A DNA stretch of 64,000 nt from Kineosporia babensis (GTDB taxonomy: Bacteria > Actinomycetota > Actinomycetes > Actinomycetales > Kineosporiaceae), in NCBI RefSeq assembly GCF_021129305.1, contig NZ_JAJOMB010000008.1:1-64000 (forward strand), read 5' to 3'. How positions within the stretch are numbered: position 1 is the stretch's first letter; the number at the start of each line of letters is the position of its first letter. Under the pieces are notes generated by a model. The model was not told the DNA's origin. It was given only the letters and a program-made list of their open reading frames with translations, and did not search any database. Shown piece after piece: positions 39,239-45,895 of this stretch. A program made the position numbers and the translations under genes.

Positions 39239-39652
39239 ATGCGGATACCCAGGCCGGACCTCACGGTGAGCCACCGGCTGGAGGCGGCCGGACCGATCGA
39301 GACCTCACTCGTCTGGCGGCGCTACTGCGAGCCCGCCCTCTGGCCGCTCTGGTCGCCACAGGTGCGTCGGGTGGAGTACGCGTTCGAGCGAATCAGGCCG
39401 GGTACGCCGGGACGGGTGTTCGGTCCAGGTGGGCTCTGGCTGGCTTTCTGGATTGAGGACGTGCGTGCGGACGAACGCTCATGGACCTGGCTGGCGCGCC
39501 GGGGGCCCTGGGCGGTGGCGCTGGAGCATGCCGTCCAGCCCACCACCGAGGGCACTCGCACCCAGCTGGCGATCCGCGGGCCGGCTCCGCTCGTTCTGCC
39601 CTACCTGCCGCTGGCCCGCTACGCCCTGCACCGGCTCGTCAACCTGCCCTAG
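39239..39652 (+). CDS. SRPBCC-fold protein of unknown ligand
   Basis: 137 residues from ATG at 39239 (an in-frame GTG 24 bp upstream is an alternative; neither has a clear ribosome site). The strand/helix pattern and VEYAFERIRPGTPGRVFG…WLAFWIEDV look like a polyketide-cyclase/START (SRPBCC) fold, which binds hydrophobic ligands. It ends 4 bp inside the convergent response-regulator gene. Confidence 0.6.
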   Translation: MRIPRPDLTVSHRLEAAGPIETSLVWRRYCEPALWPLWSPQVRRVEYAFERIRPGTPGRVFGPGGLWLAFWIEDVRADERSWTWLARRGPWAVALEHAVQPTTEGTRTQLAIRGPAPLVLPYLPLARYALHRLVNLP

Positions 39653-40308
39653 GAGGAGACCGTTCCGGCTCGCAGCCAGGACAGCACGGCCAGCACGCGC
39701 CGGTTGTCGTCGGACCCGGCCGGGATGTCCAGCTTGCCGAAAATGCTTGCGGCGTAATTCTCCACGGTCTTGTGACTGAGGTTCAGCACCGCCGCCACCC
39801 CGGCGTTCGAGCGCCCCTCGGCCATCTGCCGCAGCACCTGCCGCTCCCGCACGGTGAGGGCGGCCAGCGCGTCCTGCCGCCGGGAGTGCCCGATCAGGCT
39901 GTCGACCAGGGTGGCGTCGACCAGCGACTCGCCGGCCGCGAGCCGGACCAGGGCGTCGCGCAGGGTGCCCACGTCGTCCACCCGGTCCTTCAGCATGTAC
40001 CCTCGCCCCGCACTGCCGTTGGCGAAAAGCTCCGCTGCGTAGGTCGTCTCGGCGTAGGTGGAAAGGATCAGCACGCCGATGCCGGGGTCCAGCTCACGGA
40101 TCCGGGCGGCGGTCTGCAGGCCCTCCCGGGTGAAGGTCGGGGGCATCCGGATGTCCAGGATCGCCACCTCGGGCCGGGCCTGCTCGATCCCCTCCAGCAG
40201 TTCCTCACCGTTGCTCGCCTCCAGGCAGACCTCTACGCCCACCTGACTCAGCAAAAGCCTCAGCCCGCCCCGGAAAAGGGTGGAATCGTCCGCCATAGCT
40301 ACCTTCAC
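39649..40308 (-). CDS. NarL/LuxR-family response regulator
   Basis: 219 residues. A receiver domain with acidic pocket D7/D8, phospho-acceptor D52 (VAILDIRMPP), switch Ser/Thr and K (MLKDR) is followed by a LuxR HTH (LTVRERQVLRQMAEGRSNAGVAAVLNLSHKTVENYAASIFGKLDI). It should be activated by the two histidine kinases immediately upstream (44 bp from the nearer one). Targets are unknown. The gene order kinase-kinase-regulator is on one strand, suggesting one unit. Confidence 0.9.
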   Translation of the reverse strand: MKVAMADDSTLFRGGLRLLLSQVGVEVCLEASNGEELLEGIEQARPEVAILDIRMPPTFTREGLQTAARIRELDPGIGVLILSTYAETTYAAELFANGSAGRGYMLKDRVDDVGTLRDALVRLAAGESLVDATLVDSLIGHSRRQDALAALTVRERQVLRQMAEGRSNAGVAAVLNLSHKTVENYAASIFGKLDIPAGSDDNRRVLAVLSWLRAGTVSS

Positions 40309-40351: not shown

Positions 40352-42172
40352 TCATCGGTACGGGATCTCTGCGGTCAGGGTGGTCCCGGCCCCGGGCGGG
40401 CTGTCCAGCCGGAGCGTGCCCCCGGTGGCCAGGACCCGCTCGCTCAGCCCGTTCAGGCCGGTGCCGGCGCCCAGGTCGGCGCCCCCGACCCCGTCGTCCT
40501 GGATGGTCAGCTGCAGGCTGCCGCCGGTGTCCGCGCCGTGGACCTCGATCCGGCTGGCCCGGGCGTGCCGCACGGCGTTGGTGATCGCCTCGGCGGCCAC
40601 GAAGTACCCGGCCACCTGAGCCGGCATCGGCAGGCCGAGCTCGGGCAGGTCGACCTCGACCGGCAGCGGCTGGGCGGCCCCGATCCGGCGCACCGCCTCG
40701 GCCAGGCCCACCTCGTCCAGGATCGAGGGGTGCAGCCCGGCGGCGATCTCACGCAGCTCGGCGACCGTGGTGCTGAGCTGCTCGGAGGCGTACTCCACGG
40801 CCTGTTCCAGCCCGTCGACCCGCTCGGAACGGATCTGCTCGAGCAGCGCCTGCACCCGGTGCAGCGCCCCGGCGTCCAGGTCCTTCTCCAGGGCCTGCCG
40901 CTCGGCCAGCTGGGCCGCCACGATCCGGGCGTGCGAGGCCCGCACCAGCTCCAGCTGGGCCCGGGCCTCCACCTGCAGCCGGGCGTTCTCGATGGCCAGG
41001 CCGGCCGCCGAGCCGACCGCCTCGACCAGGTCGGGGTAGCGCCACAGCGCCTGGTCGGCCCGGACCATGGCCAGCCGGGCGCCGTTGGTGGAGGTGATCG
41101 GCAGCAGCAGGCCGTGGTCACCGGTCTCGCCGCCCGGCTCGGCCGAGGTGGCGCCGTGCCGGTCCACGTAGGCGCCGATCTCCGCGGCCCAGTAGTGGAT
41201 CTCCAGGTCCGGGTCGTCGAGCACCTCCCGGAAGGCCGCCTCCAGCCGCTCCGGGGTGCGGTCGACCCGCAGCCGGGGCAGCAGGTCGGCGATCACCACG
41301 CTGGCCAGGCGGCGGCGCACGGTGGCGATCACGAAGGCGATCGGCACGGTGAGCAGCAGCATGGTCTGGATCACCAGGATGTCGTCGAGCAGCCGGCCGC
41401 GAACCCCGAACACCTGGGCCAGCGAGGCGGCCATGCTGGCGGTGGCGGCCAGCGCGGCGGCCCCCACCACCGGCAGCATCAGCTTGCGGTCGAGGCCGCG
41501 GATCAGCCGGCTGCGGCGCACCCAGAACACCAGGAAGCCGACGGCCAGCAGCACCTCACCGGCGGAGGACAGGTACGACAGCCAGCGGTGCAGTTCCGGG
41601 TCGGACTCCAGCATCGGCCACCAGGCGGTGCCGTCGTCCCGGCCGGTGGCCAGATCGGAGCTGAGCACCACCAGGAACCGGCCGCCCAGCATCCAGACGG
41701 TCAGCGCGATCAGCAGCCGGCGCTCGGTCCGGCCGACCGCGGCCCGGTCCGGGTAGCCGTTGATCGCCCAGGTGCCCAGGATCAGGGTGAGCGGGGCGGC
41801 CAGGTAGGCGAGCAGGTGCAGCGGCCCCCGGCTGATCGCCTCGACCCAGCTGATCGGCCAGACGCAACCGGCCACCACCAGGGCCCAGCCGGCGTTACGC
41901 TGCCCCGGCTCGCGGGAAAGGATCACCCCGGCGGTGACCAGCGACCCGGCGAAGGCCACGGTGGGGGCGGCCAGTTCGGGGCGGTGCTGCCAGATCGAGG
42001 CGGTGCCGATCGAGGCGATCACCGTGACCGTCAGCCCGGCCAGCACCGCGCCCAGCCACGGCACCGGGCGGCCGGTCGGCGGCCCGGGGGTTCCGGGTGG
42101 CTGCGGGGCCCGTGGCACCCCGGAGAGCCGGGCGAGCCCGGCGATCCTGGCGGCCATGGTGTTGGCAGACAA
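40352..42172 (-). CDS. Membrane histidine kinase lacking the phospho-acceptor His
   Basis: 606 residues from a TTG with GAGGTAA five bases upstream (an ATG at 42157 is the other option). About eight transmembrane helices fill residues 35-290, then a GAF-like domain, then a HisKA_3/HATPase core. The dimerisation motif normally DLHDGAQQR reads DLDAGALHRV: D433 replaces the His. By contrast the ATPase is intact: AEAITNAVRHA (N532), DDGVGGAD (559-565) and GTGLNGLSERV. It should bind ATP but cannot be phosphorylated at the usual site. A partner with the opposite defect lies 201 bp upstream (42374-44185). Confidence 0.88.
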   Translation of the reverse strand: MSANTMAARIAGLARLSGVPRAPQPPGTPGPPTGRPVPWLGAVLAGLTVTVIASIGTASIWQHRPELAAPTVAFAGSLVTAGVILSREPGQRNAGWALVVAGCVWPISWVEAISRGPLHLLAYLAAPLTLILGTWAINGYPDRAAVGRTERRLLIALTVWMLGGRFLVVLSSDLATGRDDGTAWWPMLESDPELHRWLSYLSSAGEVLLAVGFLVFWVRRSRLIRGLDRKLMLPVVGAAALAATASMAASLAQVFGVRGRLLDDILVIQTMLLLTVPIAFVIATVRRRLASVVIADLLPRLRVDRTPERLEAAFREVLDDPDLEIHYWAAEIGAYVDRHGATSAEPGGETGDHGLLLPITSTNGARLAMVRADQALWRYPDLVEAVGSAAGLAIENARLQVEARAQLELVRASHARIVAAQLAERQALEKDLDAGALHRVQALLEQIRSERVDGLEQAVEYASEQLSTTVAELREIAAGLHPSILDEVGLAEAVRRIGAAQPLPVEVDLPELGLPMPAQVAGYFVAAEAITNAVRHARASRIEVHGADTGGSLQLTIQDDGVGGADLGAGTGLNGLSERVLATGGTLRLDSPPGAGTTLTAEIPYR

Positions 42173-42373
42173 TCGAGTTACCTCGCACCCGCGGCCGGGC
42201 AACGGTTGCCCACCGGAGGGTGGGAGAACGACAGTGACTGAACAGCATCAGAGAGTATCTGCTGCCCGACGCAATGGCCCCATCCAGGACGGATCCCGAC
42301 GCCCGTCCGGGGCGCAGCGTTACCCTCCAGGCTCCGTCCCCGCACGGTTGGTGACCGATGCGTAACGCAGCTC

Positions 42374-44185
42374 TCAGCCGCAGGGGATGGCGGCGACCAT
42401 GAGTGAGCCACCGCGCGAGAGGGTGGAGAACATGATGTCGCCGCCCAGCGCGCGCACCCGGTCCAGCATGCCGGGCAGCTCGGACTCCAGCCGCGACCCG
42501 GCCGGGCGGCGGGAGTCCTGCTCCACCTCGATGGTCAGCACGCCGTCCCGCTCGTGGCCGCGGATGATCACCCGGGAGGCCCCGGGCGCCTCGGCCGTCT
42601 TCAGCGCCGCGCAGATCAGGTAGTACGCGGTCTCTTCGGTGGCCGCCGGGAAGCGCCCGGTGGGCAGGCTGGCCTCGACCTCGATCGGCTGCTGATCGGC
42701 CACCGCGTCGATCGCCGCGGACAGCCCGGCCTGGCTGAGCACCGCCGGGTGGATGCCCCGGGCCAGGTCGCGCAGCTCGTTCAGGGCCAGCGCGATTTCC
42801 TGGTTCATCTGCCGCAGCCGCTCCCGCGCCGCCTCGGACAGCTGCGGGCGGTCGGAGGCGGCCAGCACCAGGCGCAGCGCCAGCAGCCGCTGCTGGGCGC
42901 CGTCGTGCAGGTCGCGCTCGACCCGGCGGCGTTCGGCCACCCCGGCCTGGACCGCCTGCATCCGCACCGCCCGGACCTGGCTGAGCCGGCCCAGCACGGC
43001 GGCCTGCAGTTGGGCGTTCTCCAGGGCCAGACCGCTGGCGGCCAGGGCGTTCGAGAGCACCAGCGGATGCCGGCGCAGGCCCGGGTCGGCATCGATCACC
43101 GCCAGTGGCTCTCCGGTGGGCTCGGTGACCGGCATGACCAGCCGGTCCTCGTCCTCGGCGGGCGGCCCGGCCGGGGCCCCGGTGACGTCCACGTGGGCGT
43201 TCAGCTCGGGCGCCCAGTAGCGCACCCGCAGCGTGGCGTCGCGCAGGGCCGTGCGCAGCGCGGTCTGCACCGCCTCGGGGGTGGGGCGGCGCTGGACCTG
43301 CTGGATCAGGGTGAGCACGGCGTTGTCGGCCAGCCGCCGGCGCACCACGCTGATCAGGAAAGCCAGGGGGATCACTGCGAGGGCGGCCGGCTGCAGCGCG
43401 TACACCCGGTCCATGGTCTGCCCGGTGAGGCCGAGCAGCTTGGCCACCGGCACCGCGCCCACCGCCACCGCGATCACCGGGGAGGCGAGGGCCATCGGGG
43501 CCAGCAGCTCGCGGTCCAGGCCGCGCATCCGCCGGATCCGCAGCACCCACAGCAGCAGGAAGCCGCCGATCACGAGCACCTGCAGCGGCCGCAGCACGGT
43601 GCCGATGGCAACGTTGAACTCGCGGTCCGCGATCAGCGTGATCCACCAGGTGTCCGGCTGGTAGCCGCGCCACTGCGGGCGGGCGGTCAGGGTCTCGGCC
43701 AGGATGCCGCCGACCGCGACCCCGGCCAGGATCCGGACGAAGACCCGTTCCAGCCGGCTGAGCAGGGCCGGGTCGGGGTAGCGGAACATCGCCCAGGCGG
43801 CCAGGGAGAGGGCCAGGTAGCTGGCCGGGCCGGAGATGAAGGGCAGCGGGCCGATCGCCCACTCCTCGCTCCAGCCCAGGGCCCAGAACTGGCCGGCCAG
43901 CACCAGGAGGACGGCGGTGCGCCGGTGGCCGGGCTCGTCCCAGAGGATCACCCCGGCCCCGCTGAACATCGCGGTGAACAGGATGCTGCCGGCCGCCACA
44001 TCGGGGGAGACCTGCCACAGCGGGCCGAAGATCAGGGCGCCGGAGGCGGTCAGGACGGCGGTGACGGCCAGGGTGCGCGACCACTGCCGGCTCGCCGAGG
44101 CCGGAGTCGGCGGGCGTTGCGACGTCGGGGCGATGGACGTCGTCCTCACCGTATTCACCCTGTTGGCCCAGCCGAACTCGGACAA
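42374..44185 (-). CDS. Membrane histidine kinase with intact His but degenerate ATPase
   Basis: 603 residues, TTG start (GTG at 44158 also possible). Layout is as for the neighbouring kinase: ~8 membrane helices (40-290), GAF-like region, and HisKA_3 with the canonical ERDLHDGAQQRLLALRL (H427). The ATPase domain is damaged: the N-box reads CAALKTAEAPGASRV (conserved E and the Mg-binding N are gone), the DDGxGG lid motif reads EQDSRRPAG, and the GxGL loop reads ESELPGML. It probably cannot bind ATP on its own, but could receive a phosphate from the intact ATPase of its neighbour. Sequence similarity suggests the two arose by duplication. Confidence 0.88.
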   Translation of the reverse strand: MSEFGWANRVNTVRTTSIAPTSQRPPTPASASRQWSRTLAVTAVLTASGALIFGPLWQVSPDVAAGSILFTAMFSGAGVILWDEPGHRRTAVLLVLAGQFWALGWSEEWAIGPLPFISGPASYLALSLAAWAMFRYPDPALLSRLERVFVRILAGVAVGGILAETLTARPQWRGYQPDTWWITLIADREFNVAIGTVLRPLQVLVIGGFLLLWVLRIRRMRGLDRELLAPMALASPVIAVAVGAVPVAKLLGLTGQTMDRVYALQPAALAVIPLAFLISVVRRRLADNAVLTLIQQVQRRPTPEAVQTALRTALRDATLRVRYWAPELNAHVDVTGAPAGPPAEDEDRLVMPVTEPTGEPLAVIDADPGLRRHPLVLSNALAASGLALENAQLQAAVLGRLSQVRAVRMQAVQAGVAERRRVERDLHDGAQQRLLALRLVLAASDRPQLSEAARERLRQMNQEIALALNELRDLARGIHPAVLSQAGLSAAIDAVADQQPIEVEASLPTGRFPAATEETAYYLICAALKTAEAPGASRVIIRGHERDGVLTIEVEQDSRRPAGSRLESELPGMLDRVRALGGDIMFSTLSRGGSLMVAAIPCG

Positions 44186-44265
44186 GAGGGATATCCCCTG
44201 TTTCGGCCACGTTGAAGTCGGCTCAGATTGTTGAAGCTGACACGTAGCGGTGTCAGCCTGGGCGC

Positions 44266-44719: not shown

Positions 44720-45895
44720 TCAGCGCACCGATTCCCCGCCCCGGGGCCCACCGTGGCCGGGCATGCTCGGGATCGCCTCGCGCGGGGTGGAGGCGTCGGA
44801 CCAGCGCAGCACCGCCCCGATCCCGTCGTTCAGCCGGGGTGTGTCGGCCTCCAGCAGGGTGATGCCGGTGTCCGAGGCCAGCGCGGCCCAGGCCAGCGCG
44901 GTGTCGGCGCGCACCCTGACCGGTTCGGCCGCGCCCATCGCCCGTACCTCGTCGGCGGCCTCGGCGATCTGCAGCGGTTCGTCGCCGACCCACAGGTGGT
45001 AGGTCGAGGACGGGTTGTCGTGCAGCAGGATCTCGTCGGCCTGACCGCGGCGGATCACCTCCACCACATCACCCAGGCCGGAGACCGCGGTGTCCTGCCG
45101 CCCCTCCCCCAGCCGGAAACGTTCGGCCAGATCGTTCTCCTGAGCGGCCTGGTGCTCCGAGACCGCCGCCGCGACCGCCTCGTTCACGGCCTCGCCGGAG
45201 ATGCCGTCGGCCCGGCCACCAGTACCCAGCCGCCGGGTGACGGTAGCGGCCTCGGTGCCGAGATGGCCCAGGAAGTGCGACACCGCCTTGTCGTCGCCGC
45301 CGACCAGCACCAGGTCCGGCCGGTGCCGGCGGTGCAGCCGGCCGACGGTCTCGGCGACCGCTGCGGCGTTGCGCTCCCAGGAGTCCTCGGCCCGGTTCTG
45401 AAAACGATGTTGCGAGTAGCTGTCTCCGGGCGACTTGCGCAGTTCGTCGTGACCGCCCTCGACTTCGATCCGCTCGACCGGATCGCCCGGTTCACCGTGC
45501 AGTTCGAGATCGGCGCCGGCCCGGTCGATCTTCACCAGCAGATAGGACGTCGTGCCCCGCCGGGCCCGCACGGCCGGCATCAGCGCCGGGGCCACACCCC
45601 AGCTGATCACCGTCTGCTCCGGGGCCCGGGGCAGGGGCACGTCGAGCACCAGCCCGTCCTCGGCGGTGGCCACGAGAAGTCTTCCTGGCGGCCCGGGTTC
45701 GGCCTCGGTCACCGCCGAGGCGATCGCATCGGCCACCGATTCGGGGGCACCCTGACCGGTCAGGTTCCGCCGGGCGTTCTCCCAGCGGATCGCCGCTCCG
45801 GCCGCCCCGGCCTCGTCCGGCCGGGAGGTGTCGAGGGCCACGGTGGCGTAGGGGCCACTGTGACCGAGCAGTCCGTGCCAGTGATTCAGCTTCAC
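44720..45895 (-). CDS. Vms1/Ankzf1-like (Rv2629 family) protein
   Basis: 391 residues, cytoplasmic. The sequence follows the actinobacterial Rv2629/baeRF pattern: VALDTSRPDEAGA at the N-terminus, PGRLLVATAEDGLVLDVPLP, SYLLVKIDRAGADL, KSPGDSYSQHRFQNRAEDSWERNAAAVAETV with the Gln motif region used by release-factor-like Vms1 enzymes, and VLVGGDDKAVSHFL. In eukaryotes Vms1 releases peptides from stalled ribosomes; the bacterial proteins are thought to act in ribosome rescue or hypoxia response, which remains unproven. It is transcribed alone. Confidence 0.8.
   Translation of the reverse strand: MKLNHWHGLLGHSGPYATVALDTSRPDEAGAAGAAIRWENARRNLTGQGAPESVADAIASAVTEAEPGPPGRLLVATAEDGLVLDVPLPRAPEQTVISWGVAPALMPAVRARRGTTSYLLVKIDRAGADLELHGEPGDPVERIEVEGGHDELRKSPGDSYSQHRFQNRAEDSWERNAAAVAETVGRLHRRHRPDLVLVGGDDKAVSHFLGHLGTEAATVTRRLGTGGRADGISGEAVNEAVAAAVSEHQAAQENDLAERFRLGEGRQDTAVSGLGDVVEVIRRGQADEILLHDNPSSTYHLWVGDEPLQIAEAADEVRAMGAAEPVRVRADTALAWAALASDTGITLLEADTPRLNDGIGAVLRWSDASTPREAIPSMPGHGGPRGGESVR

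Follow-up and report, generated by a model that had tools for sequence, protein, structure and literature searches.

Reciprocal loss of the acceptor histidine and the ATPase motifs in two adjacent sensor kinases of Kineosporia suggests a kinase divided between two subunits

Histidine kinases are taught as homodimers. Heterodimeric ones are termed rare in a report on the FasB/FasC/FasA system of Streptococcus pyogenes, and the available part of that report describes FasC as giving the essential histidine while its own ATPase domain is dispensable, FasB as giving the kinase domain, and a two-hybrid assay in which the two proteins formed a heterodimer and no homodimer (PMC12675982). For EnvZ, the accessible text of another study states that heterodimers of the H243A and G2-box mutants become phosphorylated in trans in vitro when the two are mixed (PMC4734776). 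We analysed a 64,000-nucleotide stretch of Kineosporia babensis DNA (hereafter the window; NZ_JAJOMB010000008.1, positions 1 to 64,000; contig C78 of G000, whose genome measures 9.4 Mb), in which two neighbouring genes encode the membrane histidine kinases A and B beside one response regulator, and compared it with five further genomes of the genus. Two further groups are referred to below: kinase C, a paralogue of B, and kinases D and E, which form a second type of pair.

The results showed that A and B are paralogues, open and full-length, that agree at 195 of 608 aligned positions (32% identity) and have complementary catalytic defects. The acceptor site of A reads DLDAG, with an Asp codon (GAC, 40874-40876; D433 counted from 42172, D443 counted from 42202) at the position of the histidine, whereas that of B reads DLHDG, with the acceptor codon CAC at 42905-42907 (His427 counted from 44185). 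The ATPase marks of A are intact (N-box EAITNAVRHA, Asn codon 40577-40579; DDGVGG; GTGL), and B is without the N-box Asn, DxGxG and GxGL. Pfam profiles, used at cut-offs of 26.4 bits for HATPase_c and 24 bits for HisKA_3 with sub-threshold matches sought to E ≤ 1, divided the two kinases in the same way: A matched HATPase_c (34.4 bits) with no HisKA_3 match at E ≤ 1, and B matched HisKA_3 (38 bits) with no HATPase match at E ≤ 1. A also lacks DxxxQ, the phosphatase signature of HisKA_3 kinases, beside the histidine position, and B retains it. An earlier note on the window, made from its letters, had claimed the reciprocal loss of acceptor and ATPase; residues and profiles bear it out, and every sequence point in it that we checked was right except the start of B. 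Translation of B probably begins with the GTG at 44158 rather than the TTG at 44185, because an in-frame TAG follows the equivalent of that TTG in three of six genomes (G002, G004, G005). The frame of A is open, with a start possible up to 42202, and the TTG at 42172 agrees with the conserved N-terminus.

Table 1. Features of the kinase locus in the window (coordinates are window positions unless a contig is named)
Feature	Coordinates	Strand	Description
Kinase B	42374..44185	(-)	Layout as in A; acceptor His427 and DxxxQ present, ATPase motifs gone
Kinase A	40352..42172	(-)	Membrane region, GAF-like part, dimerisation and histidine-phosphotransfer (DHp) domain with Asp for His, complete ATPase domain
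Response regulator	39649..40308	(-)	NarL/LuxR type (receiver and GerE helix-turn-helix); directly downstream of A
Non-coding block	42234..42295	(-)	Between B and A; conserved across six aligned genus genomes (by eye)
13-base WTCCCTCTTGTCC	44180..44192	(-)	Just upstream of the probable start of B; second copy upstream of C (C89:96723-96735)

The same arrangement was found throughout the genus. Gene order is B-A-regulator on one strand in all six genomes, the regulator (Response_reg 57.9 bits, GerE 51.7 bits in the window) is 89-95% identical in the other five, and the reciprocal lesions of A and B recur in 6/6 genomes at 75-85% identity. The acceptor site of A holds Asp in five genomes and Glu in one, with the N-box Asn, DxGxG and GxGL intact in all six; B keeps its histidine in 6/6 and the N-box Asn in 0/6, and no copy has a complete DxGxG, the first Asp of which is retained in most. 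When the remaining five genomes were scanned with Pfam, 5/5 pairs gave the same reciprocal result. The recurrence in relatives that the earlier note had proposed to look for is present, and a B-A pair keeping both sites, which by that note would refute its reading, was sought in the six genus genomes and not found. Of the elements of a HisKA_3/NarL-type system, the DHp domain with acceptor histidine (in B) and an adjacent receiver-plus-GerE regulator are both present; neither kinase holds both catalytic sites in any of the six genomes, but the complete system does.

Selection on the two genes was estimated as the ratio of nonsynonymous to synonymous substitution (dN/dS) by simple Nei-Gojobori counts in these GC-rich genomes, with 15 pairs each for A and B. 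The median for the ATPase part of B was 0.226, against 0.224 for the live domain of A; the DHp medians were 0.261 (B) and 0.334 (A), and each part of both kinases lay within 0.22-0.39. The dead ATPase domain of B is thus under purifying selection, and its maintenance is consistent with a structural function within a dimer. These values bear directly on the explanation that ordinary decay or sequencing error removed a different part of each kinase by accident. Such decay could point to the 58 HisKA_3 places of this genome, all of which were read, since degenerate DxGxG is common among them and GxGL is sometimes odd; for that reason the N-box bears the argument, and its Asn is kept in 56 of the 58 and absent in B and C only. 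Together with lesions shared by six genomes, among them the named K. rhizophila and K. mesophila assemblies, this leaves accident with next to no probability, and pseudogene decay is ruled out by the conservation and the dN/dS values.

A second type of reciprocal pair was found outside the genus. Kinase D reads DLHDG and has no ATPase motifs, its neighbour E combines a complete ATPase with Gln, Ala or Arg in place of the acceptor histidine, and in 3/3 pairs Pfam reported HisKA_3 for D only and HATPase for E only. Complete D/E pairs were found in one genome from another genus of the same family (G012) and in two from another family (G177, G199); in G012 a regulator follows E, and the contig of G199 ends after E. 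A further D member (L119, G104:C109) was seen as acceptor only, with no partner on its contig, which ends shortly beyond it. D/E pairs thus occurred in 1/7 other genomes of the family of Kineosporia, the other six having been probed with the A profile and not with D/E; all 18 kinase loci read from those six with the A profile keep the histidine and at least three of four ATPase marks. In family f27, D was matched in three of eight genomes.

Reciprocal lesions were then set against a wider count of 89 distinct kinase cores (loci L007-L136 and L223-L238, more than 100 bits and wide coverage required), a sample biased by having been gathered with A-E queries at 100 bits. Within it, 24 cores fall in groups A-E and carry one of the two lesions, and the other 65 retain the histidine and at least three of four ATPase marks; the count dropped weaker kinases, some with two of four ATPase marks, so that a weaker dead kinase could escape notice. 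Wide regions were read for 20 of the 47 matches listed, 30 short loci were classified, and the copy of C truncated by a contig end in G001 was excluded both here and from dN/dS. The core profile can misplace the acceptor histidine; A and E were verified by eye in the alignment. Two loci that the profile called His-less (L211, L264) have the histidine motif on reading, and a third candidate (L207) has no HisKA_3 motif. In the source genome, 56 HATPase places besides A lack a HisKA_3 match, of which 21 were read and 35 left (34 top-scoring HATPase places and one other); among the 21, twelve had no core-profile match and nine a weak one (24-62 bits), most of them unjudgeable at the histidine site. 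With 21 of these 56 places covered, A as the sole His-less kinase of its type in this genome is unsupported.

The trees placed the two types of pair apart. In a first tree, from whose alignment the ATPase columns and the acceptor column had been removed, A joined B/C (support 93/67), and D and E fell among intact kinases of other families. A tree of the sensor part only put A with B/C at 99.8 in the Shimodaira-Hasegawa-like approximate likelihood ratio test. Outside the clade of A and B/C, the nearest relatives found are for the most part single kinases that are intact and lie beside a regulator, and a sequence search of the genome contigs with B/C gave matches in Kineosporia only. Approximately unbiased (AU) tests rejected A with E (p 6e-8) and B/C with D (p 1e-11) on the first alignment, and did so again on a second alignment of the sensor part only with the longest branch removed (p 3e-5 and 9e-53, respectively), so reciprocal loss arose at least twice; D and E as sisters were compatible (p 0.27 and 0.68). 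On both alignments, the tests reject descent of all reciprocal pairs from one ancient event. The origin by duplication and subsequent reciprocal loss that the earlier note proposed is well supported, given one clade for A and B/C, intact single relatives and defects fixed in 6/6 genomes.

To these observations we fit a heterodimer, to which we give a probability of about 0.76. A and B would be duplicated HisKA_3-type (DesK/NarX-like) membrane kinases with divided labour, A serving as donor subunit with a live ATPase and no acceptor, and B as acceptor subunit with its ATPase domain kept as a dead structural part. The HisKA_3 fold operates as a DHp dimer, and the two kinases would dimerise through their DHp helices, after which the ATPase of A would phosphorylate the histidine of B in trans and B would hand the phosphate to the adjacent NarL-type regulator. 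With one histidine (in B) and one ATPase (in A), the mixed dimer alone could be phosphorylated, and in trans; neither an A-A nor a B-B homodimer would be expected to autophosphorylate, and A and B probably work only as a mixed pair. B is also likely to be a phosphatase, since it keeps DxxxQ and A does not. As an optional element, the Asp or Glu of A might hold the DHp domain in a phospho-like state, an acidic residue that the second pair does not have at this site. The obligate heterodimer with trans-phosphorylation had been the central proposal of the earlier note; the second independent pair strengthens it, and we still infer the dimer, its trans chemistry and the transfer to the regulator from sequence. 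Its further suggestion of a coincidence detector is backed by no result, and the orphan C suggests that the wiring may extend beyond one pair.

The residue that replaces the histidine in A allows another explanation, in which both proteins are allosteric pseudokinases of the DivL kind, B acting mainly as phosphatase or scaffold and A as an ATP-gated switch, while the regulator receives its phosphate from acetyl phosphate or a different kinase. DivL is termed a pseudo-histidine kinase in a published abstract, and A, with a non-histidine acceptor residue (Asp/Glu) and a retained ATPase domain, has the features of that type. The presence of DxxxQ in B and its loss from A would suit such a division. 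Many DesK chains are found among the structural matches of the model of B, the H188E form being one of the best, at low TM-scores (template modelling scores), and the Asp/Glu of A resembles this H188E. The DesK H188E mutant is reportedly phosphomimetic. A DivL-type pseudokinase works through a kinase that is intact and encoded by a separate gene; the linked partner here, B, is not intact, and an unlinked kinase might take that part. Against the explanation, it leaves unaccounted for both the complementary loss of acceptor and ATPase in neighbours, twice independently, and the retention of every ATPase motif in A and of the whole histidine motif in B, and the Gln, Ala or Arg of the second pair is not acidic. 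We consider two such pseudokinases unlikely.

Paralogue C widens the question of partners. It lies on contig C89 of the same genome (G000:C89:94917-96728; L061:8915-10957, minus strand), is 75% identical to B in the DHp domain and 61% in the sensor part, keeps the acceptor histidine with a dead ATPase domain, and is present in 6/6 genus genomes (broken by contig ends in G001). No regulator resembling that of the window was seen at five of the six C loci, and at the sixth, in G001, a weakly similar regulator lies about 1 kb off, behind another kinase. Over ten pairs from five genomes, dN/dS was 0.366 for the ATPase part of C, a weaker constraint, and 0.199 for its DHp domain, a stronger one. 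The sequence WTCCCTCTTGTCC occurs in the 9.4 Mb genome at the two places given in Table 1 and at no other (reversed control pattern, 0), and by eye it is kept upstream of B in 5/6 and of C in 6/6 genomes; upstream of B it overlaps the palindrome GGGATATCCC (44188-44197), also kept in 5/6 genomes. It is probably a common cis element or a remnant of the duplication. C is a candidate second acceptor for A, and the common, unique upstream sequence would suit a scheme in which A is a shared donor for the acceptor sensors B and C, the input being chosen by swapping the acceptor, within a split that arose at least twice in actinobacteria. This scheme is tentative, and we rate it clearly short of an even chance.

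The non-coding block between B and A is probably a promoter or operator of A and the regulator. Its core of 26 bases (42270-42295) has a single match in the genome at up to three mismatches, and a regulon search of the whole genome with the block before A returned only its own site. The block probably drives A and the regulator separately, so that A may be dosed differently from B, as would be useful for a donor that also serves C.

Several observations weigh against the A-B heterodimer. The AlphaFold model of A is poor (predicted local distance difference test, pLDDT, 54.7) and unusable. The gap of about 200 bp between B and A, with the conserved block before A, possibly yields unequal amounts of the two subunits. 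Split members are also found unlinked: C has no neighbouring donor, and in G199 a kinase (L271:7453-8919, minus strand, on G199:C43) with Ser at the acceptor site (QLSAG) and three of four ATPase marks, possibly an orphan donor, had no acceptor partner within the 10 kb of sequence examined, with a contig end near. ArcB and EvgS, moreover, phosphorylate strictly in cis and, unlike the EnvZ mutants, do not become phosphorylated in trans, according to the accessible part of one account (PMC4734776), and a cis-only mode here would make the pair useless.

The unlinked members also give room to an explanation in which the partners lie elsewhere, other intact HisKA_3 kinases phosphorylating B and C while A serves another acceptor and the A-B link is historical. 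The 58 HisKA_3 places would offer candidates for this, and published work on ChrS/HrrS describes cross-talk between a pseudokinase and a paralogue that is intact, as far as the accessible part of that paper goes (PMC9491836). B, A and the regulator are nevertheless linked in 6/6 genomes, and a second linked reciprocal pair exists. Beyond its own group, A is most closely related to B and C, and within a kinase family dimerisation is as a rule specific. Partners elsewhere are therefore, in our estimate, improbable, more so than the pair of allosteric pseudokinases.

Two side observations were made on neighbouring sequence. Contig C89 also carries, at 108600-126000 (L085), three similar HisKA_3 kinases within about 17 kb, with ELHDS motifs and degenerate DxGxG. 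In the window, a bacterial archaeo-eukaryotic release factor-like protein (baeRF family 2) is encoded near the kinases at 44720-45895 on the minus strand.

If A and B act as proposed, gene duplication would here have locked a homodimer into a heterodimer, perhaps opening a sensory network with shared subunits. The locus would offer a natural system for switching off the acceptor and donor roles separately, and would allow a direct test of whether HisKA_3 kinases phosphorylate in cis or in trans. The open-access literature searched gave no natural pair in which the loss is fully reciprocal, and the described systems resemble this one in part. HK1/HK2-TcrA (Rv0600c/Rv0601c) of Mycobacterium tuberculosis reportedly divides acceptor and ATPase between two proteins with one regulator, but as truncated halves and not full-length sensors, and in CheA3/CheA4 of Rhodobacter sphaeroides one protein is said to phosphorylate the other. 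As described in the available part of the source, the acceptor-histidine domain and the kinase domain of that pair are on separate proteins, as here, but these are chemotaxis kinases in which whole domains are missing (CheA3 = P1+P5, CheA4 = P3-P5) (PMC2829493). AbrC1/C2/C3 of Streptomyces coelicolor likewise combines two kinases with one regulator in an actinobacterium; compared by description only, the accessible part of its account does not mention reciprocal loss (PMC9739842). The EnvZ mutants carry the same two complementary kinds of lesion, but were made in the laboratory from one homodimeric kinase and are not a natural pair; at least twice, evolution has made a complementary-mutant pair like these constructs of biochemists for trans-phosphorylation. 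The likeness to FasBCA, the nearest of the published cases found, extends to two adjacent kinase-like genes with one regulator, and to one subunit with the histidine and the other with the ATPase, which in A and B is read from sequence only. By the available part of its description, FasB retains DHp histidines (H241, H284) and FasC a predicted ATPase domain, so that the loss there is not fully reciprocal, and FasA is ComE-like, whereas the regulator here is of the LuxR/GerE type. A and B would work in the manner of FasB and FasC, but membership of the FasBC family is not claimed. Published analogues thus exist in FasB/FasC and CheA3/CheA4, and the A/B pair is a variant of that design, to which the repeated origin of the split and the orphan acceptor C add new points.

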